A stretch of DNA of 64,000 nt from Opeltia flavorubescens. Its lineage: Eukaryota > Ascomycota > Lecanoromycetes > Teloschistales > Teloschistaceae. The DNA lies in the NCBI GenBank assembly GCA_000442125.1, contig KE546965.1, positions 372,001 through 436,000 of the forward strand. The letters are read 5' to 3'. A program made the translations under genes and the position numbers. The notes under the pieces are model-generated. The model did no database searches, was not told the origin of the DNA, and was given only the letters and a program-made list of their open reading frames with translations. Shown here piece by piece: positions 4,124 through 36,574 of this stretch (within the stretch, counting starts at the first letter, position 1; every line of letters begins with the position of its first letter).

Positions 4124-5717
4124 ATGGTTTACAGCCTTACCTACCGTCGCCCGCCTCGTGTGGATTCGAAGAGAGGCTCTGTAGGCAGCGAGAAGACCGG
4201 GCCATCAATTGGTGGATCTACCCTCAATGACGATTCACCGGACGTCCCTATCAACTATGGCATTCCCGAAGCTCTATCCTTTGACCGCATCATCGACGGA
4301 GGTACCTGTCCGGTATGTAGCCTTGTTCATCATTGTCAAGTCGCCCTTTCGTCTGGCGTGATCAAATTCGGTCCACAATGCCTGAGACTCCCCATATATT
4401 TCATCGAATGCCATCCATGTTGCATTCCATGTGTCTGAACCAGCACTTGAAGCTTACATCTCTTACTATAGCCCTGTACGACTCGCGACTTTATGAACTA
4501 CCTCATCTACATCGAACTCGCTGCAGAAAACCTCCAATTTTTCCTCTGGTACAAGGACTATGTCAGACGATTCGGCCTACTTCCAGAGAATGAACGTAAA
4601 CTTGCTCCAGTATGGACTGTCGAGCAAGCAGAGGCACAGGCTCTAGCATTGAAGGACAACCCAAATCCGATGAAGACTGTCAGCCCAGAGACCGCAGCGA
4701 TCTTCAAAGGGACTGACTTTGCAAATGCTAAGGCAACAGTCGTCGAGATGGGCAGGGGCAACCCATTCAATACTCCACCAATGACGCCTAATAGTGGAGA
4801 ACGAGACAGTGTAGCACCATCCGAATACCCTTGGAGCGACAATGCATCAACCTTGCGGAGCACATTCAAGGCGTCACACGACAAGAAGGCGGCTGGTGCA
4901 TTTGACGCAGCCGATGTCAAGCTACAGCCTTGTAAGTCGAAATGATACTATGTAGTACCTCTAAATCAGCTTCTAACACTTTCCTACAGTCACAATTCAA
5001 CCATTCCGAGAAGAGATCTCCCGTATTATCGCCATCTATGTTGCAGACGGTGCTCCACGTCAGCTGAATCTATCGTCTAAGGAGCGTGCCGCTTTGCTTC
5101 ATGCTTTGGCCATAACAACCGATCCAACCGCTTTCCGACAAGTCATCCATACGGTAGAGTGGACCCTGCGCCATCAAGCCCATCAGAACTTCATCAGATG
5201 GACCATCTGCAACGGCAATCGCCCTCGTGTCATCTTTGCCCGTGGTCTCGGTGTCGGTGGTATCATCGGTGGCATTATTGCTGCAGTCCTGATTGTCTTG
5301 AGTGGAGCTGGACGAGGCTGGCGAGTCCTTTCGGCCATTGGCTTCATGATTGGCATTGCTACTCTGGTTGCCGCCTGGAAGGGTATGTGCGTCGTCCTTC
5401 ACGGTATGCATCATCGTCACTTGCGTCCGTGGGAGCTCTTCACCGAAGACGACAATGCTTCTTCTGTCATGGAAATGAAGAGAGACTCTTTCGATAGCTT
5501 CGGCACTAGCAACTCATACGAAGATCAACCATGGGTTGCGAAGTACGAAAAACGGAACCTTGTCCGTAAGGTGTTCGACCGCGAAGTATGGATCCAAGAG
5601 CCGGCCCTCCGACAAATCCAAGATACAATCTTCCTACAGGCTGTGCTTGCCTCCGTCGTCTTNACCGCAATCTGCGTGGGCATCTTCGTTGCGTTTCCGA
5701 AGGGCAATTTTTACTGA
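4124..5717 (+). CDS. RGS-domain membrane protein, RAX1-like
   Basis: Three exons (4124-4312, 4472-4931, 4990-5717) join in phase to give 458 residues. The second exon opens with C-T-T-R-D-F-M-N-Y-L followed by AENLQFFLWYKDY, the start of an RGS domain. A Ser/Pro-rich insert and a second RGS-like helical block (FREEISRIIAIYVADGAPRQLN, in part) follow. The C-terminal part has hydrophobic segments at about residues 303-325, 330-352 and 432-455. An RGS domain followed by three membrane helices is the layout of yeast Rax1 and its filamentous homologues, which act in bud-site or polarity marking and G-protein signalling. Which G-alpha it might act on cannot be read from the sequence. One base (5663) is N, in the last helix. 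Confidence 0.82.
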
Positions 5718-13587: not shown

Positions 13588-16440
13588 TCAAACAAGCTCC
13601 CACCTCGCCAACCTCCCCACCGCCATCCCTGCATCCCTCACAACACACAACCTCCCCACAACCTTCTTCCCCAACTTCCCCTCTAACCCCTTCAATTCCA
13701 TCCAAACCCTCCCTTCCCCACCAACTCCATCTTCATCCTCGATTTCCCTCTGCTGCTTACCAGATGAAAATCTCACCTTCTCAACCGCAACGCACCCAAT
13801 CGCACTAGCCTTCCCCTGCCCAAGGTCGAAATTCCCCGTCGTGACGAAACCGATGAGATCTTCCTTATCGGGAACGGAAGGATAAGCCGGGTCGCCTGGT
13901 TGGGTGATACGGTTTTCCATTGCAAGAACAGGATCAGAAGAAGAAGGGTTCTGAAGAAGGGATAAAGCTGTTTGCTGAGTCCTCAAGGGGTGAGACTCGT
14001 TCCTGGGAAGCTGGGCAAGGGTTTTATTGTTGCGATCTGAGGTGCTGATATGAGGTTTGTGTTGTCTTTGGCTCTTGGCTGGAGGATGGAGGATCGAGTT
14101 CGCGAGAGAAAGCCATTGGAGTCGGAGATGGGGAGTGGTGGTGGGAAGACGGTAGATGCGGGCGCAGGTTGTGGGGTTACCGCGGGAGAGGAGGGTGAGG
14201 TGGACTGTTGTTAGGGCGTGCTGTTTATTGGGAGGTAAAGGATTAGGTGAAAAGAGGAGAGTCGAGGAGAATGAGAAGGGAATATGGTTGATCGAACACT
14301 GGGGAAAGGTGGTGACCGCTGAGTCAGATTTCGAAGCTTCGGGTGCGATATTCGTAGATTTTGCGGGATCCTGATGATTTGTGGATGAGTCTGTCGTCGT
14401 TGCCTGGGATACAGAAGGAGGATCTGGTGCAGGTGCGTTGAAAAGGTATTCCCAATCGCATGCCCAACCCATGCCTATCTCTCCCTTCCTCCCATGTCCT
14501 AGATCAAGGCTTTCCCATGCAACTCGCTTGCCCTTTGATCGTTTTTCCCAATCGGCTTTCCTCTTCGCACGTTCCATCATTTCCCATTCCCAACCTGCTT
14601 GGGTTCCGGGACAGTCGCCCGGGAACCATGGAATTCCATGCTCGAAAGCAATCTGTCTGGTTTCTTCTAAGCCGCCGAAACGTGGAGTGCCGCCTGTTGA
14701 GAGAGCGTAATGCATAACATGATACCAGACTGGAAGGACGCATTTCCATGGAAGGAGCAGGGTCCATGAGCCTTGACCACCAGCAGTGGAAGCACGGTTA
14801 GCCACCAAGAGAATGGGTATTTGGGGGTCCGAAGGTGCTGAAGCTGGGAACTCGCCGGGCATTGCATCGCCCTTCCGGCGGTTGATAGCCTTCTGGCTAG
14901 GGAGTAGTCGACATGCAGTCAGACGAGCTGTGCGGTCGAAGATAGAGGGAGGAGTTTGTGCCCTGTCTGGTGGCCAGGAAGCCAATGTTTCGAGGAGCTC
15001 GTCATTTGCTGACTCGCATTGTGACTGCTTGATCGTTCGCGGTGGAAAGCGTAACCGTGGATCGGAAACATTGAAGCCCAAAACAGCGTTTACCGGCAGA
15101 CAAGATGGATTTGTGAGTGAACCAAGCGAAAGCCAGGCTTTGGCTGTCTCCTCGTTATCATTCATTGGTTTCAAGGCGGAGAAAAGGGTCTCGGTTGATC
15201 CAGGGCCAGTAAGCTCTAGACTGCCAATCTCGAACCGTAAGTCCTCCACCATCACGGGAGGTCGTTGCATTTTGGCAACTTTCAACAGCTCCGTCCATAG
15301 CTGTAAGAAAGCGGAGGGATGGACTCGTAAGAAGCATCTCCTTTTCGCCATTTTAGTTGTTGACGTGGTAGCTTCAGTATTGAGTGCCGATCCAGGCTGA
15401 ATGCACCAGACGATTTCTACTCTTGCAATCCATTTCTGCTCGCCGTCCCGTTCCTTCATCCATCCTTGCCATGATCTTGTACCATTCCTCCATTTGGCTT
15501 GTCGCTTGCTAGTCAATGCCTCTTCATCAACCCCTACTCCACGAAAAAGACCTATCAAGCTAGCTTCCGCTCCCTCAAATTGTATTGTGCTTATGTAGCT
15601 TTTATCCCAAGCAACGCATCCCCGAAGCGATCCAGCACGGTGCGTCTTACGATAGGTCTTCTCGGTCGGAGTCAATGCAATCGCAAATCTCCACAACGGA
15701 TGTTTCGGCTCGGTCATGTGCGCTCGTTCGGCGTGGTAGATGTGCGTAGGAAGCCAGCATTTATGCTTTTGACGTTTTCGGAATTTTGAGGGCGGTTCGT
15801 CCGGTTTAGAAAGAACATTCTTCTTCAGCCTTCGAACAGGAGGCGCTAAAGCTGCCGACTTGTCCAGGTCGCCGTCAGCAGGATTTTGTCCGTGAGCTTC
15901 AGCTCGCTTCTTCTTCTGCCGAGCATGTAGCTTCTCTAGCTTCTTGGCCGTCTCGAGGCGGAGGCGCATATGAGGTGTAGGTTTCCGACGTCGTGAGGTA
16001 ACGGTAGGAGTGTTATCCTCCTTCATCTTGAAGCTTGCAGGGGTATGTGAGCTACAACAATGGCTACAGAGCTAAATGTCTTCGTGATGAGGGACACTTA
16101 CCTCTCTGGTTGCTCGTTTTCTCAACTTTTTCGGTACCTTCTTGACATTGTGACTCGCAGTACGCCTCCGCAAATCATTCGGCACTTGCTGAAATGCCCT
16201 TGAGCTCAAGACCTTTTTCGATGCTTCCATGCTGGCTTCCATGGCTTTGATTTCAACTTCGCGTGCTTTGACAAAAGCCGACACGTCAAGCTCTCCATCC
16301 TTGTTGAGAGCTTTATCTGACGTCTGGGTCAGGATATTTCTTGCTTCGTCTATTTTGGCGCGTTTGGGGTTCCTCTGGCGATTCGAAGCATTGGCGGTGG
16401 AAGAGGGTTCTTTCCGCTTCCTTTCTGACGTAGTTTCCAT
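13588..16440 (-). CDS. POP1: Ribonuclease P/MRP protein subunit POP1
   Basis: Two exons (16440-16102 and 16026-13588) give 925 residues. The nuclear POP1 subunit binds the RNA of RNase P and RNase MRP and is needed for tRNA 5' processing and rRNA cleavage. The N-terminal POP1 domain shows RRRTASHNVKKVPKKLRKRA, joined across the intron to REMKEDNTPTV, then the basic RLRLETAKKLEKLHARQKKK and CWLPTHIYHAERAHM. The POPLD region includes ILLVANRAS and GWEWEMMERAKRKADWE. The C-terminus has the GFVTTGNFDLGQG motif. The 16102/16026 intron joins exactly at RE-MKEDN, as homologues require. The tail after residue 870 is variable. Confidence 0.93.
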
Positions 16441-30318: not shown

Positions 30319-30976
30319 GCAAACATTGGACCTCTGGATGTGCGACATACCTCACCCTATCCGTGACATTGGGTGTACTGCCTGTCGACATGGCCATCAA
30401 GGCGATAGCAAGAAGAATTGGCAGACGGATGAGCGGGGGGAAAGGGTTGTAGGAGACTTGGAGATTACAACGACTCGGGGGACGATTGGAGAGGTCAAAT
30501 CTCGGATTTCAGCTGGCGTTGAAGGAGGAGATACCCATCTGGTGTTATTAACAGGGAAAAGTCCGGTCTCATTTGACCCGTGTCGTTCGCTATCATCCTG
30601 TATTTCCAAACGTCCACATAGGACGAACACACTGTCGCTACATAAAAGTAAGAAAACTGATCGTAATCAGTTTTTGCTTATATTGAATGCGCATTGTAAT
30701 CATCCAAATTGATGCTCTACCTACTAGATTCCACCGCTGCCATTAATGCCAATTCTGTGCTTTACTGATAGTTAGAGTCGTCTTTGGCTTCCCTAAGTAC
30801 AGAAGCTGATTTCGCGGGCCGCAGGCGCCACGCAAGCTCATCTAGAAACCTGAGATGCTTAATCCTTTTAAGGATACATGCTCTCAGGCTAATTTTCTCG
30901 GTTGTGCCATTCAGGATGATTCTCGGTCATTTCACGTCCTAAAGAACTGGCTCCATGAAGCTTCATCCTCTCTGAG
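30319..30976. other. Intergenic region
   Basis: Between the RRM gene and the PGAP4-like gene, both rightward. Probable 3' UTR followed by promoter; no gene was recognised. Confidence 0.4.
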
Positions 30977-32224
30977 ATGAGGCTGAAGCCCACAATCATC
31001 CTTGGAAGGTTTCATGACCACCCTGAGTCCCGTCCTCGTACTTTTCTTTGGTCGACGAGTTTTTGGATCATTCTCTGTCACGCGATTTCCTACCTCGCTG
31101 CATACCAGTACTGCCGCTACGCTTTTAGTCGTGATCCTACATCATTCTTCTTTGACCCGAAGTGGGGCTATCAAAAGGTGTATTCCCTAAAGCGTGAGCA
31201 GCATGCAGACGCCTTCATTGAAGCCGCAAACCGATCAAACGAAGCGGCTAGCTCTCAACTGAATGCTGAGATATGCCTTGGGATTGCTACAATCACACGG
31301 CCCGAAGACCAGTACATCCGTCGTACAATAGGCTCACTGCTAGAAGGACTCACTGATACTCAACGCACGAGCATACATCTGGCCGTTTTCTTCGCTCAGA
31401 CCAATCCTCATCGACATCCGGTATACAATGAGACGTGGCTCGAGAACGTCGCAAACGGGATTGTACATTATGACGTTGACGATGAAGAGATCGCCCGTCT
31501 TCGCATGCTCGAGGAAACCCATCAAGTTTGGGCCAAGTCGATGTACGATTATGAGTATCTTTTGAAAATTTGCCTCGGTACCGGAGCACAATGGATCATG
31601 ATCGTTGAGGATGATGTTCTAGCAAAAGAAGGGTGGTACTCTGAGGCTATGCGTGCGCTGGACGATATTCAAAACCAAACGAATGATCACGGATGGTTGT
31701 ACCTGCGCTTATTCTATACAGAAAAGCTTTTCGGATGGAATAGCGAGGAATGGCTCGGATACCTGGGCTGGTCTATTCTGGCATTCCTTCTCACAGCGAC
31801 TGCCTTGGTCATCAGTCGTTCCTCCTCTCGTCGCCTTCGCAAGCACTTGTCAAATACATCCATCGCCATAATTTGCTGCTTCTGTCTCCCGGCAACCATC
31901 TTGCTATACTTCATGGCAGGTCGGGTGTCCATGCAGCCTCTACCATCCGGACTGCAAAGAATGGAGAAATTTGGCTGCTGTTCTCAGGGCCTCATCTTCC
32001 CTCGGCAAATTGTTCCGCGAGCAATGCATACCGTCCATCATGCCACCAACAAGCGCTACTACGTCGATATGACATTGGAGAGATGGGCCAATAATGAGGG
32101 TCTGGCTCGCTTCGCCCTCGTGCCTCCGCTACTTCAGCATGTAGGCTCGAAGAGCTCGAAAGGATCAGGTTTCGATGAAGGCGCCAATAGTATATGGAAC
32201 TTTGCGTTTGAAAATTACACGTGA
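30977..32224 (+). CDS. PGAP4-like Golgi glycosyltransferase
   Basis: A single-exon frame encodes 415 residues. An N-terminal membrane anchor (about residues 24-45) is followed by a luminal domain with ICLGIATITRPEDQYI and an acidic metal-binding motif IMIVEDDVLAKEGWY near residue 208. Two closely spaced hydrophobic segments follow (about 257-278 and 293-313), then a second catalytic half ending in LVPPLLQHVG. A GT-A-like glycosyltransferase domain interrupted by a tandem pair of membrane helices is the hallmark of PGAP4 (TMEM246), which adds GalNAc to GPI glycan in animals. Fungal homologues are common, but their substrate is not settled. Localisation to the Golgi or ER is inferred from the family. 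Confidence 0.8.
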   Translation: MRLKPTIILGRFHDHPESRPRTFLWSTSFWIILCHAISYLAAYQYCRYAFSRDPTSFFFDPKWGYQKVYSLKREQHADAFIEAANRSNEAASSQLNAEICLGIATITRPEDQYIRRTIGSLLEGLTDTQRTSIHLAVFFAQTNPHRHPVYNETWLENVANGIVHYDVDDEEIARLRMLEETHQVWAKSMYDYEYLLKICLGTGAQWIMIVEDDVLAKEGWYSEAMRALDDIQNQTNDHGWLYLRLFYTEKLFGWNSEEWLGYLGWSILAFLLTATALVISRSSSRRLRKHLSNTSIAIICCFCLPATILLYFMAGRVSMQPLPSGLQRMEKFGCCSQGLIFPRQIVPRAMHTVHHATNKRYYVDMTLERWANNEGLARFALVPPLLQHVGSKSSKGSGFDEGANSIWNFAFENYT

Positions 32225-33192
32225 AAAGTCAACGGCCGATTTTCACGTATCATGATCCGCGCTTCTCACAAAGCAGGCAATACAAGGGACCCACAAACGA
32301 AGGATCTCCAACGTTGCTCAGTATCCCATCCCATGCAATGGCTCAAAACCCAGATGTAAACCCAGAACATCAAGAGACTTCATAGCCTGGTTTGCAAGAC
32401 GTGAATTATCATGTCGAGAAAGCACATGGCCGATGAGACCTCTATGTTATACCTCGTATGAGGGATGATATATGTTAGCGGCCGATCACTAACCGGGGTA
32501 CGACTTCTCGCAACAACCACCATGATAATTATCAAGAGTAATCATCAGATCTAGCGTACTGTTCGCTTCGAGCAGAGCTTCTGACCAATTTCAATGTCTT
32601 TGGTGAAACTTCCCGAGGTGTAAAGCTGTAAAAGCTTTTATACCCCCGCGAGCACCGGTTGATAAGCAGCTGCCAGCATACAAGCTGCTACATACATATA
32701 CTTTACACCACTGTAAGACTCATTTGCTATGGCTCGAGGTGCCTTCAAGCTAAGTCGTTCAAGGGGAATGAATCTAGATAAAGCAAAGAGGGAAATCCTC
32801 AGTTGCAGGAGAACGTGGTAAATCCACAAACGTGAAGTATACGATCTCAGGAATGGAAGGCGAGACTTTGGATCGAGAATCGTAGATATATCATCGATCA
32901 TAATGGATGATAAATTCCATAGTGTCCCATATATACTCGTGCAATGAATATATATATGTGTAGATCTGAAGTAGGTGAGCAGATGCATGTCTATCCAGAC
33001 GTGTGCAATAAGTCAGACCGTGCCAAAAGCAAGTCTCCTCACTACAGAGTCTAGCTCTCCGGTAGCACTCATTGTCGTCAATATGCTTCTAGTACTCGTC
33101 TTTCCGTCCGACACTGGGACTATTCTTACCCCTTCATCTGATACCACAGACTAGGTAGGATATACATTCCATCCATCCATCCTCAAGCATCA
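32225..33192. other. Intergenic region before the tRNA-like array
   Basis: AT-rich, no gene recognised. The longest minus frame (32988-32638) is not supported by any family resemblance. Confidence 0.4.
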
Positions 33193-33367
33193 GACATCTT
33201 AGCCAAGTGGTTAAGGCGATAGACAGCTACTCGGTACCCCACCATTGACACCCCTTTCGTTCGACAGTGGGTGTTGTCCCAGCCTCTTGTGGGCGGGCGG
33301 ACGGTGCTAAACCCTGGCTTTGCCATCTATTTCCCTCGGGAGCGGAGGTTCGAATCCTTCAGATGTC
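33193..33367 (+). tRNA. tRNA-Ser-like unit 1, anticodon region GCT, long insert
   Basis: The ends pair perfectly as a 7-base-pair acceptor stem (GACATCT with AGATGTC). The 5' half has an A-box-like TAGCCAAGTGGTTAAGGC and the 3' half a long serine-type variable arm (TTTCCCTCGGGAG) and a B box (GGTTCGAATCC). The anticodon stem ATAGA/TCTAT is intact. The loop begins C-A-GCT-A, so the anticodon reads GCT (Ser), but position 33 is A, not the invariant U. About 95 bases separate the two halves at the intron position, including a self-complementary ACACCC/GGGTGT pair. A T4 run at 33378-33381 fits a Pol III terminator. Either an unusual intron-bearing tRNA-Ser or a tRNA-derived relic. Confidence 0.6.
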
Positions 33368-33596
33368 ATCTTACTTCTTTTGCCGTTTCTTGGATCATTC
33401 TCGTGGTCATATCCTTCAACGAGCTGCATGCAGTGGTAGACTGCTTTTGGAGATCAGGTCCTGTGCGGAAGTGTACATACAATTAGAGAAGCGTGTCCGC
33501 TGATTGACATGACTCGGATGCATACTTTCTTTCCCTGTATCTGCCAGATAGCAACTTCGCCGTATAGCCGTCAAGAGGATAGGGAAAATATCCATA

Positions 33597-33765
33597 GACA
33601 TCTTGGCCGAGTGGATTAAGGCGGCAGAGGAATAGTAGATTGTGTATCCATGTACGAGCTACGGCCTAGTAGTGTCAACTTTGACCTCGGTTTGGTTAGT
33701 ACTGGTGAAGCATCTACGGCCAATCTGTTTCCTTCGGGAGCGGAGGTTCGAATCCTCCAGATGTC
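33597..33765 (+). tRNA. tRNA-Ser-like unit 2 with long insert
   Basis: The same architecture as unit 1: GACATCT/AGATGTC acceptor stem fully paired, TTGGCCGAGTGG-type A box, variable arm TTTCCTTCGGGAG, T stem GGAGG/CCTCC and B box GGTTCGAATCC. The anticodon stem is GCAGA/TCTGT. The loop starts G-G-A-A-T-A, giving AAT where an anticodon should be and G at position 33. The insert opens with GTAGAT and closes with ATCTAC, a perfect 6-base complement that would extend the anticodon stem. A T4 run follows at 33775-33778. Confidence 0.55.
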
Positions 33766-34017
33766 AATAGTTTCTTTTGATGTTTCTTTTGCCGTCTCTT
33801 GGAATGGCTCTCCTAATTAGTTAGGTCAGACGGACTGTGTATGTAGAAGTTCCTACTTGGAAAAGAAAAGTATGTATCTGTGCACGGAATAACTCGCGTA
33901 AAGAAGTTTCTCCGCAGATATACTTGCCTTAGCTATAATTTTTGCTTCTTCGTTCTCAATTGGCGTCGGTCGTAAACATACATAGATTCTTACTAAGAAA
34001 CAGGGAAACAATCAAAA

Positions 34018-34183
34018 GACATCTTGGCCGAGTGGTCTATGGCGGCAGAGAAATAGTAGATAGCAAGCTGAGCAAAGACTTAGGTAAAGGGAGTTTTCTT
34101 CCGAAAGCCAAGTTGAGTGCCGGTGAAGCAACTACGGAAAATCTGTTTCCTTCGGGAGCGGAGGTTCGAATCCTCCAGATGTC
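34018..34183 (+). tRNA. tRNA-Ser-like unit 3 with long insert
   Basis: Acceptor stem 7/7 paired, TTGGCCGAGTGG A box, variable arm and B box identical to unit 2, T stem GGAGG/CCTCC. The anticodon loop starts G-A-A-A-T-A (AAT, A at 33). The insert ends in GGTGAAGCAACTACGG, close to the same place in unit 2 (GGTGAAGCATCTACGG), and its first bases GTAG can pair with CTAC there. A T5 run lies at 34195-34199. Confidence 0.55.
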
Positions 34184-34382
34184 AAGTTATAATCTTTTTG
34201 CCCTCTTCCAGGATCATTCTTCCCAATAACTGGATGTCGTTCTTTTGGTTTCCTAAATAAATTGAAAAGGACAAACAAGAGGAGCGAGCATCCGTCCTCA
34301 ATAATCTTTGTTTTGTTTCGAATGTAACCCCATCATCTCATTACAGTACATATCTTCTTTCAGCTATAGGAAACATATTCGA

Positions 34383-34552
34383 GACATCTTGGCCGAGAGG
34401 TTCATGGCAGCAGAGAAATAAGTAGACCGCAACATCGTGCGTCGACCGAGGTGGAAAGGAGCTAACCCCTCCCGAAGCCAAAGTAAAGGCCGGTGATGCA
34501 TATACGTAAATCTGTTTCCTTCGGGAGCGGAGGTTCGAATCCTTCAGATGTC
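34383..34552 (+). tRNA. tRNA-Ser-like unit 4 with long insert
   Basis: Acceptor stem 7/7 paired; the A-box region is slightly changed (TTGGCCGAGAGG); variable arm and B box as in the others; T stem GGAGG/CCTTC with one G-T wobble, as in unit 1. The loop starts G-A-A-A-T-A. The insert ends in GGTGATGCATATACGT, a diverged form of the end seen in units 2 and 3. The strongest terminator of the set, T7, lies at 34572-34578. Confidence 0.5.
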
Positions 34553-34950
34553 GATGGACTTCGTTCGTTTCTTTTTTTGGCTTTGCGGGCTTTGGTCGAC
34601 GGTGAGAAGAGAATAGAAGAGGAAGGACAGCAAAGGTGTAGCACAGAGATGAAAGTTCTTGATTTTGGTGACGACGAGAACATGGCTTGATCCCCGGGGT
34701 GGATCATACTGTAGGTATAAAATGAGTCTGCAACTATCCACTCTCCCGAAACAGCGGTCAGCATTGACAATGAAGGAAACCTTCACTAATTAAATCGTTG
34801 ATACGAAAGCATACTTATCGTTGTATTGAAGGAACGAGAACCACGGGAAGATTAAGGCATATTTAAGGAAAGACTACAATTAAGGGAGAGTAGCCAGGAG
34901 CAAGATTGATGGACATGAGGGAACCAAATCTACCGTGTCACTATCCTACC
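34553..34950. other. Intergenic region after the array
   Basis: Contains the T7 terminator-like run of unit 4 (34572-34578) and then probable 3' UTR of the leftward oxidase gene. No gene was seen. Confidence 0.4.
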
Positions 34951-36574
34951 TCAATGAGACGATATTGTATCTCCACCATATTGCACCCGCTGAATCATAC
35001 TTCGATTGCAGTCTGCTATAGTCTTGATCCCCGCGAGACCCATACTCTGGTCTAGATCCTGATAACGGTAAGTTAGCCTCACACAGAATCGGACACTTTT
35101 GAGGGAGTAGGGTCACTCACAGCGAGAATACCCTTCAGCACATCTCTGGCGCCTAATTTGCCACCAATAGCAAGCCCATATACGAACGGTCTGTACCCAG
35201 TTTAGCCTTGGTCGCATAACTTAGTGACTGCTTGAAGATCAACCTACCGCCCTATCAGGACCCCTTTGGCACCCAAGCACAATGCTTTAACGACATCCAC
35301 ACCCGTCCGTATCCCCGAGTCGAACAGCACTGTCAGCTTGTCCCCTACCGCTTCTACGATCTCCGGCAACACCTCGAGACTCCCAATCGCTCCATCCAGC
35401 TGCCTCCCACCATGGTTGCTAACCACAATCCCGTGCATCCCCATCTCAGCCGCCTTCTTAGCATCCTCAACGTGCTGGATACCCTTCAGCACAATCGGTC
35501 CGTCCCATTCTGCCTTGATCAATTCGAGATCTTCCCAAGTATGCGCAGCTCCCGAGAAAACATCAGCTTCCCATTGGCGAGAAGCAAGGAAGATGTCATC
35601 TTCTGGTGTCTTATTGTCGTACAGCTTTGCAAATTTTGCGCGGAAGGCCGGGTCAGCGAAGCCGTTCTCATCGCCGATGCCCAAAGCAAATGGAACATAG
35701 GCGTTGTCGAGGTCTGCTGGTCGCCAGGCAAGAGCCCAGGTATCTAGGGTTATAATGAGGACTTTGAAGCCATTGGTTTTGGCGCGGTGGAGCAGCTTTG
35801 GTGCAGGAAAGGAGCGCATTAGCCCCCGAGATACTATGCACGGTGTATCGGATTCGGTCAATGGTTCTTGAATGTGCTCACAGATTTAGTGATTTCGTGA
35901 TCCTGAGGCCAATATAACTGATACCATCTTGTCCCATCACCATTGGCTTTTGCAACCTCCTCTATGGGACTGCTCGATGCAGTACTGAGGATGTACGGGA
36001 GGCCGATCTCGCGGGCAATCTCAGCGACGCCAAGCTCTTTGTCGTGGTGGAAGATGGTTTGCACGCCCACAGGGGCGATGAGAAGCGGTGACTCAAATTT
36101 CTGGCCAAAGATTTCAACTGCAGGACGAATCAGGTCAGCAAATGTCTATGATGGCCCTCGATCAAAACATTTACCTCTGAGATCACGATGGGTAGTGGGT
36201 CTAAGCATTCGAGGAATCATCTTGACGCAAGATAAGCCGACTGAGTCGCCATTTTGATCGACCGTTATCCCTAACCTTCCACTGTCTGAATGCTAATCGG
36301 TTTGCATCCATTGTAGCCTTTTCTCCAGCGCCCCCAGCGATATAATTGAAACTTCTTGCACCAAGATGTTGCCTCGCTTGTTGCTCAAGCTTATTCGGGT
36401 CGGTTGTCACGATAGGTAGCCTGTTGTTGAGTATGCCATCTTTGTAAATTTCCTACCGCAAAGTCAATGAACAAGACTTTTCAAATGTATTTCAGCAGAT
36501 TAGCTTACCGTTTGGAAAGCACCATACTTGCGCCCACCTTCGGGATGATCTGGATGTTCTTGGACTCGAGGCAT
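34951..36574 (-). CDS. FMN-dependent alpha-hydroxyacid oxidase (lactate 2-monooxygenase-like)
   Basis: Seven exons (36574-36509, 36452-36276, 36220-36175, 36117-35882, 35795-35248, 35190-35121, 35058-34951) keep phase and give 416 residues. Landmarks are FNYIAGGAGEKATMDANR, LLIAPVGVQTIFH, LSTASSSPIEEVA, RWYQLYWPQD, the catalytic His in VVSNHGGRQLDG, the FMN phosphate-binding LFDSGIRTGVDVVKAL and KGVLIGRPFVYGLA. The family oxidises (S)-2-hydroxyacids through FMN. There is no N-terminal cytochrome b5 domain or mitochondrial leader, so it is not a flavocytochrome b2. WYQLYW is typical of the lactate 2-monooxygenase-like fungal group, but the true substrate is not readable. A double GATA motif (36748-36758) lies about 175 bases upstream of the start. 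Confidence 0.93.

Follow-up and report, generated by a model that had tools for sequence, protein, structure and literature searches.

The locus examined here raises the question whether four tandem tRNA-like genes, each interrupted by a long insert and each lacking the invariant U33, are unusual intron-bearing tRNAs or tRNA-derived RNAs with another task. They lie in a window of 64,000 nucleotides, the whole stretch of DNA that was analysed, on contig KE546965.1 of the ascomycete Opeltia flavorubescens. With a probability of about one half, we regard the units as an old tandem family of class II tRNA-derived genes, which are probably transcribed by RNA polymerase III (Pol III) and selected for their tRNA body rather than for decoding. 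Units 2-4 lean towards tRNA-derived RNAs, while unit 1 has a regular-looking intron at the canonical position.

Organization of the array

The array comprises four direct units on the forward strand between two predicted open reading frames (ORFs) of the 64-kb window. The units follow each other at start-to-start distances of 404, 421 and 365 bases and share one layout of 5' half, insert, 3' half and T run. Unit 1 (33193-33368) is a class II tRNA-like gene with GCU at the anticodon place, A33 and A73, and is recognized by the Rfam tRNA model RF00005, by our unit model R2 (68.7 bits) and by a cloverleaf parse. Unit 2 (33597-33766; G33, A73), unit 3 (34018-34184; A33, A73) and unit 4 (34383-34553; A33, G73) are likewise class II tRNA-like and read AAU at the anticodon place; all three were delimited by the parse, ARAGORN and the unit model. 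The array had been placed at 33193-34600 in the preliminary description, of which the start is retained and the end of unit 4 is corrected to 34553, with its T run at 34572-34578.

Standard detection tools treat the units unequally. At its gathering score the Rfam tRNA model reports unit 1 alone, with 42.9 bits, and a permissive Rfam scan of 32500-35200 gave no further tRNA match for units 2-4. ARAGORN finds no tRNA when introns are disallowed and all four units when they are allowed, then calling one Gly and three Asn tRNAs from odd splits; a relaxed run (introns to 3000 bases, 80% threshold) returned 125 "genes" in the window and was dismissed as noise. The unit model matches these four units only in the whole window, and with filters off it gave 36 matches in 32200-36000, of which the 32 besides the units all have E >= 0.23. 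Exact-pattern scans for relatives of the array in viral and prokaryotic contig collections yielded no matches, which says little because of the nature of these collections and the exactness of the patterns.

The neighbouring ORF on the left (30959-32224, forward strand) has an MGAT4-like match of 40.9 bits, under the Pfam cut-off of 51.5, and the one on the right (35244-35885, reverse strand) encodes an FMN-dependent dehydrogenase. Farther upstream are ORFs for a predicted AdoMet methyltransferase (PF07757; 7228-9096, forward strand), a family which we take to be Trm44 acting on tRNA-Ser, and for the RNase P/MRP subunit POP1 (13588-16071, reverse strand). Their position 17-26 kb upstream of the array is probably a coincidence. 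The ORF translation at 4977-5717 has an X, which indicates at least one ambiguous base in the window. Taken together, the ORFs of the window suggest DNA from the nucleus of a filamentous ascomycete.

Promoter boxes, probable terminators and the class of the tRNA body

The perfect 7-bp acceptor stem, the A and B boxes and the following T runs that had been described for each unit all hold on closer analysis. The stem GACATCT/AGATGTC is present in 4 of 4 units, and the patterns used for the A box (TRGCNNAGNGG) and the B box (GGTTCGAATCC) each occur exactly four times in 64 kb on both strands, always within the units. The first run of at least four T starts 10, 9, 11 and 19 bases after units 1-4, respectively, and is 4, 4, 5 and 7 bases long; the run behind unit 1 (33378-33381) is a likely Pol III terminator, and the corresponding runs behind units 2 and 3 lie at 33775-33778 and 34195-34199, all on the forward strand. 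By chance, such a run starts within 20 bases with a probability of 0.11 in the local intergenic DNA and of 0.07 across the whole window. Units 1-3 further have in common a sequence that follows their T runs, TTTTGCC...TCTTGGATCATTCT or a variant of it, at 33375-33401, 33784-33803 and 34197-34220 (direct-repeat families D4 and D5); it is either a leftover of duplication or a downstream element. On the other side, AGGGAAA or AGGAAA stands 10-17 bases 5' of units 2-4 (33581-33587, 34002-34008 and 34367-34373) and is absent at unit 1; it is possibly part of an upstream promoter element.

The bases U8, A14, G15, G18, G19, A21 and C48 and the T loop form the conserved elbow of tRNAs. All of them, including the loop sequence TTCGAAT, are invariant among the units. 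The long variable arm (V arm), which had been called serine-type, is present in 4 of 4 units; the amino acid label, however, proved too narrow, and class II (Ser/Leu-type) is the safer one because A73 is the discriminator base of units 1-3 and only unit 4 has G73. The A73 of units 1-3 is presumably a better fit to Leu. No unit combines G73 with a Ser anticodon, since the sole G73 unit reads AAU. Seryl-tRNA synthetase (SerRS) is described as ignoring the anticodon loop and using the V arm and G73 (PMC8178436). Charging of the units with an amino acid is possible.

Constraint on the tRNA halves

The view that the units are not simply decaying, already advanced in the preliminary description, is borne out by constrained halves, unbroken stems, a two-sided change in the anticodon stem and diverged flanks. 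In the comparison of stems with inserts and spacers that had been proposed, the halves are conserved, the 150-nt flanks are at shuffle level and the inserts of units 2-4 share 48-65%. Over the six unit pairings, identity amounts to 77-91% for the 5' halves and 93-100% for the 3' halves, and to 39-51% for the 150-nt flanks with shuffled means of 41-46%. The nearest 60 nt show 35-67% identity (shuffled means 43-51%) and are thus mixed, a few pairings exceeding the shuffles, namely units 1 and 2 upstream (67%, over 36 aligned bases only) and units 1 and 3 downstream (58%). This nearest-flank likeness, together with the direct-repeat families D2, D4 and D5, is in line with some old shared flank.

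Within the halves, 14 of 75 columns vary, and these comprise 10 of 27 unpaired versus 4 of 48 paired columns (Fisher p 0.004). All stem-pair cells of the cloverleaf in the four units (96/96) keep standard pairs. When the same numbers of substitutions were placed randomly, under a null that leaves the promoter function of the A and B boxes out of account, 8.5 pairs were broken on average and none of 10000 trials left every pair intact. The promoter constraint accounts for part of the pattern, but not for the acceptor or anticodon stems. In the latter, unit 1 differs from the others by T-A versus C-G at 28-42, a change on both sides, and by A-T versus G-T at 27-43; one T-stem pair also varies between G-C and G-T.

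These observations bear directly on the idea that the units are copies of a single tRNA gene which are dead or decaying. Loss of U33 in 4 of 4 units, mismatched anticodons and the failure of the Rfam tRNA model to find 3 of 4 units would all suit such an origin. The relaxed stem constraint of tRNA pseudogenes is, however, not seen in the four units: the flanks have reached shuffle level, yet not a single stem pair is broken, variation is concentrated in unpaired columns, and units 2-4 have a structured insert in common. Gene conversion as the cause of similar halves would have to end exactly at the insert on both sides, and conversion limited to both halves while skipping the insert between them appears unlikely. 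Hence, we consider dead duplicates improbable.

The boxes could alternatively be kept as DNA, with the units serving as chromatin or TFIIIC-binding elements and the RNA being irrelevant. The A and B boxes are invariant or nearly so and unique to the units in the window, and TFIIIC-only loci exist in yeast, where ZOD1 is reported to originate from a tRNA gene (PMC5356446). Such an element would not lead one to expect that the acceptor and anticodon stems are intact, that the pair at 28-42 has changed on both sides or that the inserts of units 2-4 are structured, and we consider it quite improbable. That promoter DNA alone could be the reason for keeping the A and B boxes nevertheless counts against a family selected for its tRNA body.

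The anticodon loop and the case for splicing

With the insert placed at 37/38, the absence of U33 in all four units was confirmed, the canonical place being occupied by A33, G33, A33 and A33 in units 1-4. The same canonical split puts GCT at the anticodon place of unit 1 and AAT at that of units 2-4, as had been noticed before; the loops then read CAGCUA/A in unit 1, GGAAUA/A in unit 2 and GAAAUA/A in units 3 and 4, the slash marking the insert. The V arm is a property of all four units, whereas AAU in units 2-4 holds only if splicing occurs at 37/38. An alternative splice phase restoring U33 together with a Ser or Leu anticodon was sought among single splits with a loop of 6-9 nt, a V-arm shift of -1, 0 or +1 and 4 or 5 of the 5 stem pairs formed. 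None of the splits listed gave this combination; a T at position 33 occurred in 16 of them for unit 1, 5 for unit 4 and 0 for units 2 and 3.

The inserts extend 95, 88, 85 and 89 nt beyond the 17-nt anticodon arm of units 1-4, in agreement with the 85-95 nt given previously. They had been called far longer than usual; long they are, yet their place at 37/38 and their length lie inside what is published for eukaryotic tRNA introns, which span 6-133 nt (PMC4090602). A spliceosomal intron was rejected by eye, the ends being inconsistent among the inserts. Among the non-tRNA families of Rfam 15, nothing credible was found at gathering score in the window or at E <= 5 in 32500-35200; the four non-tRNA matches that did appear are all far under their gathering scores.

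In unit 1, loop and insert occupy 33224-33325 (102 nt, 95 beyond a 7-nt loop). A constrained fold pairs the anticodon region with the insert (AGCUA/UGGCU), as in a regular tRNA precursor. Counting against such a precursor, the free fold lacks the anticodon stem, and enforcing the cloverleaf costs 5.4 kcal/mol, versus 0.6, 0 and 0 in units 2-4. Pairing of the insert ends is at shuffle level, with 54, 102 and 82 of 300 shuffles being as good at three lengths. The insert of unit 1 is unrelated to those of units 2-4 and has the appearance of a normal intron in a tRNA with the anticodon GCU.

The anticodon-intron (A-I) pair of tRNA precursors joins position 32 to intron position -3. These positions are C-G in unit 1, G-C in unit 2 and G-U in unit 4, and G opposite A in unit 3.

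Functional spliced tRNAs are the main alternative. The tRNA splicing endonuclease would remove the long introns and products with purine 33 would decode, unit 1 with GCU reading the Ser codons AGU and AGC and units 2-4 with AAU inserting Ser or Leu where Ile codons stand, much as nematode nev-tRNAs do at other codons. Apart from place and length of the insert, the anticodon-insert pairing of unit 1, the possible A-I pairs of units 1, 2 and 4 and the identity of AAU across units 2-4 speak for splicing; unit 3 has no A-I pair, although anticodon-intron pairing is described as not strictly required for splicing (PMC4090602). U33 is missing in 4 of 4 units, but G33 exists in the Candida tRNA-Ser(CAG) (PMC8178436), from which we would argue that some tRNAs can decode with a purine at this position, a point against units selected for the body rather than for decoding. 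A class I anticodon on a body with V arm has its parallel in nev-tRNAs (PMC4033280). Two further points count against decoding tRNAs: A73 in 3 of 4 units conflicts with the G73 reported for SerRS recognition (PMC8178436), and decoding by a Ser/Leu body via AAU amounts to mistranslation. Overall, spliced decoding tRNAs are possible, though we favour units selected for the tRNA body.

A conserved rod in the inserts of units 2-4

A conserved hairpin rod in the inserts of units 2-4 is newly seen here. It extends from 33635 to 33717 in unit 2 (a GUAG...CUAC hairpin), from 34056 to 34135 in unit 3 and from 34422 to 34505 in unit 4, which has the weakest single fold of the three; folding, consensus folding and pair counts were used for its delineation. 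The complementary insert ends noticed before are, in units 2-4, the base of this rod, while the observation does not extend to unit 1 with its unrelated insert. Units 3 and 4 when folded freely, and unit 2 with the cloverleaf enforced, form a long hairpin that continues the anticodon stem via an internal loop. In the aligned rods the base is GUAG/CUAC and the apex is variable; between them follow a GC block, a block of four pairs, a bulge of one base in the 5' strand and a further block. The purine-rich internal loop beside the base is retained by all three units.

For the insert of units 2-4, consensus folding gave z -6.2 with 0 of 1000 column shuffles reaching its energy, and six consensus runs (three aligner settings, for arm and insert) gave 0 of 300 shuffles each. 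The basal part alone reached z -6.5 (0/1000), a longer apical piece z -2.6 (23/1000) and the apex alone z -0.8 (169/1000); hence, the basal rod is supported and the apex is not, within the limited power of three sequences. Of the 96 rod pair cells 87.5% are paired, compared with 31.5-40.7% when slid, and 6 of 32 rod pairs are changed on both sides among units 2-4. Re-dealing the 3' letters among the three sequences provided a modest control, in which the observed values were reached in 29 of 500 cases for cells paired, 24 for two-sided pairs, 384 for pair types and 82 for the covariation score. Single-sequence folds of units 1-4 are of no more than moderate stability, with z values of -1.7, -2.3, -3.2 and -1.0, the centroid of unit 4 being without the rod. 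Insert-end duplexes at 36 nt were matched by 102, 3, 0 and 14 of 300 shuffles in units 1-4, with other lengths pointing in the same direction, and when ends were swapped between units the cognate pair was not uniformly better. The rod model R1 gave 10 matches over 20000-50000, the three training units and seven at E >= 0.58, with none at unit 1.

Conservation of the rod is basal, beside the splice sites. Spliced tRNAs keep their standing as a possible but less favoured reading because an intron whose splice sites call for a firm stem beside them could likewise have a basal rod.

The structured rod of units 2-4 would also fit a further alternative, in which the tRNA-like part is a carrier and the insert is what it releases, as a stable tRNA-intron RNA that is either linear or circular. 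The halves, however, are far better conserved than the insert. In animals, circular tRNA-intron RNAs arise by a route other than 5'-phosphate ligation. They are known as products of animal cells (PMC6614914), whereas fungi are described as ligating by the 5'-phosphate route (PMC4090602). We regard an insert-derived product as very improbable.

A proposed tRNA-like RNA with a task other than decoding

The units selected for their tRNA body would then have the following history. Their ancestor may have been an intron-bearing GCU tRNA, to which unit 1 would be nearest, and in units 2-4 the former intron could have turned into a fixed rod that continues the anticodon stem. The product, tRNA-like and about 170 nt long, would retain the rod in its final form and take no part in codon reading. 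Proteins that recognize the tRNA body could still bind it, such as end-processing enzymes, possibly SerRS or LeuRS, and the elongation factor. Selection on the body in the absence of a normal decoding loop suggests a function in which the tRNA body has to be recognized but codons are not read. More specifically, and only tentatively, the rod might replace the anticodon loop in a family of stable unspliced tRNA-like RNAs, in which a Ser/Leu-type body, charged by a synthetase that does not depend on the anticodon, acts as a non-decoding aminoacyl carrier or as a protein-binding RNA.

If the RNAs are made, the array represents a tRNA body that selection has maintained beyond the loss of the U-turn base and in which a former intron has become a conserved arm, and it would offer a clean case for asking about non-decoding uses of the tRNA body. 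If they are spliced, it would be an example of how decoding with a purine at 33 and a mismatched anticodon can be tolerated.

Comparison with known systems

In the literature searched, mostly by title, we met no description of a fungal array of this kind, nor any case in which the tRNA body is intact, four copies lack U33 and the insert holds a conserved rod. A paper from 2016 reportedly treats the spread in eukaryotes of tRNAs that join a V arm to class I anticodons, and for this reason earlier fungal cases may be published.

Among repetitive elements, the Aspergillus fumigatus SINEs (AfuSINE2) resemble the units in having Pol III boxes, a size of 140-493 bp and an oligo-T end, but are described with a tRNA-unrelated 3' region, no cloverleaf and target-site duplications (PMC5063351), whereas both tRNA halves are intact here. 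A tRNA-derived SINE was rejected for the units. Flanking direct repeats do not exceed 4-6 bases, with chance probabilities of 0.19-0.95; SINE duplications are reported from 4 bp upwards (PMC5063351), and a very short one is conceivable here. There is no tRNA-unrelated 3' body, the T run following 9-19 bases after the 3' half, nor is a run of A6 seen within 60 bases.

Yeast is reported to have Pol III loci whose function is unclear. RNA170 and ZOD1, the latter derived from a tRNA-Ile gene, are likewise Pol III-type loci beyond the standard tRNA set (PMC5356446). The likeness is one of description rather than sequence, and an intact tRNA body with an anticodon-arm rod is not described for them in the passages of that paper cited here.

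Candida albicans tRNA-Ser(CAG) is a class II fungal tRNA with G33 (PMC8178436), the base also found in unit 2. It has a CAG anticodon and G73 and is known to decode, whereas the units carry GCU or AAU and mostly A73.

The nematode nev-tRNAs unite a V arm with a class I anticodon (PMC4033280, PMC4300185). Belonging to this type would further imply charging with leucine and use by the ribosome. Units 2-4 resemble them, from sequence alone, in their class II body with the Ile-type anticodon AAU at the canonical place, and differ by purine 33 and an insert of 85-89 nt, neither of which is mentioned in the cited passages on nev-tRNAs.

Finally, the nuclear class II tRNA genes of eukaryotes that carry an intron at 37/38, for unit 1 those of tRNA-Ser(GCU), share with the array the cloverleaf, the V arm, the internal promoter and the place of the insert as well as its length within 6-133 nt. 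The array stands apart from them by the absence of U33 from every unit, by A73 in three units and by the rod of units 2-4 with its two-sided changes.
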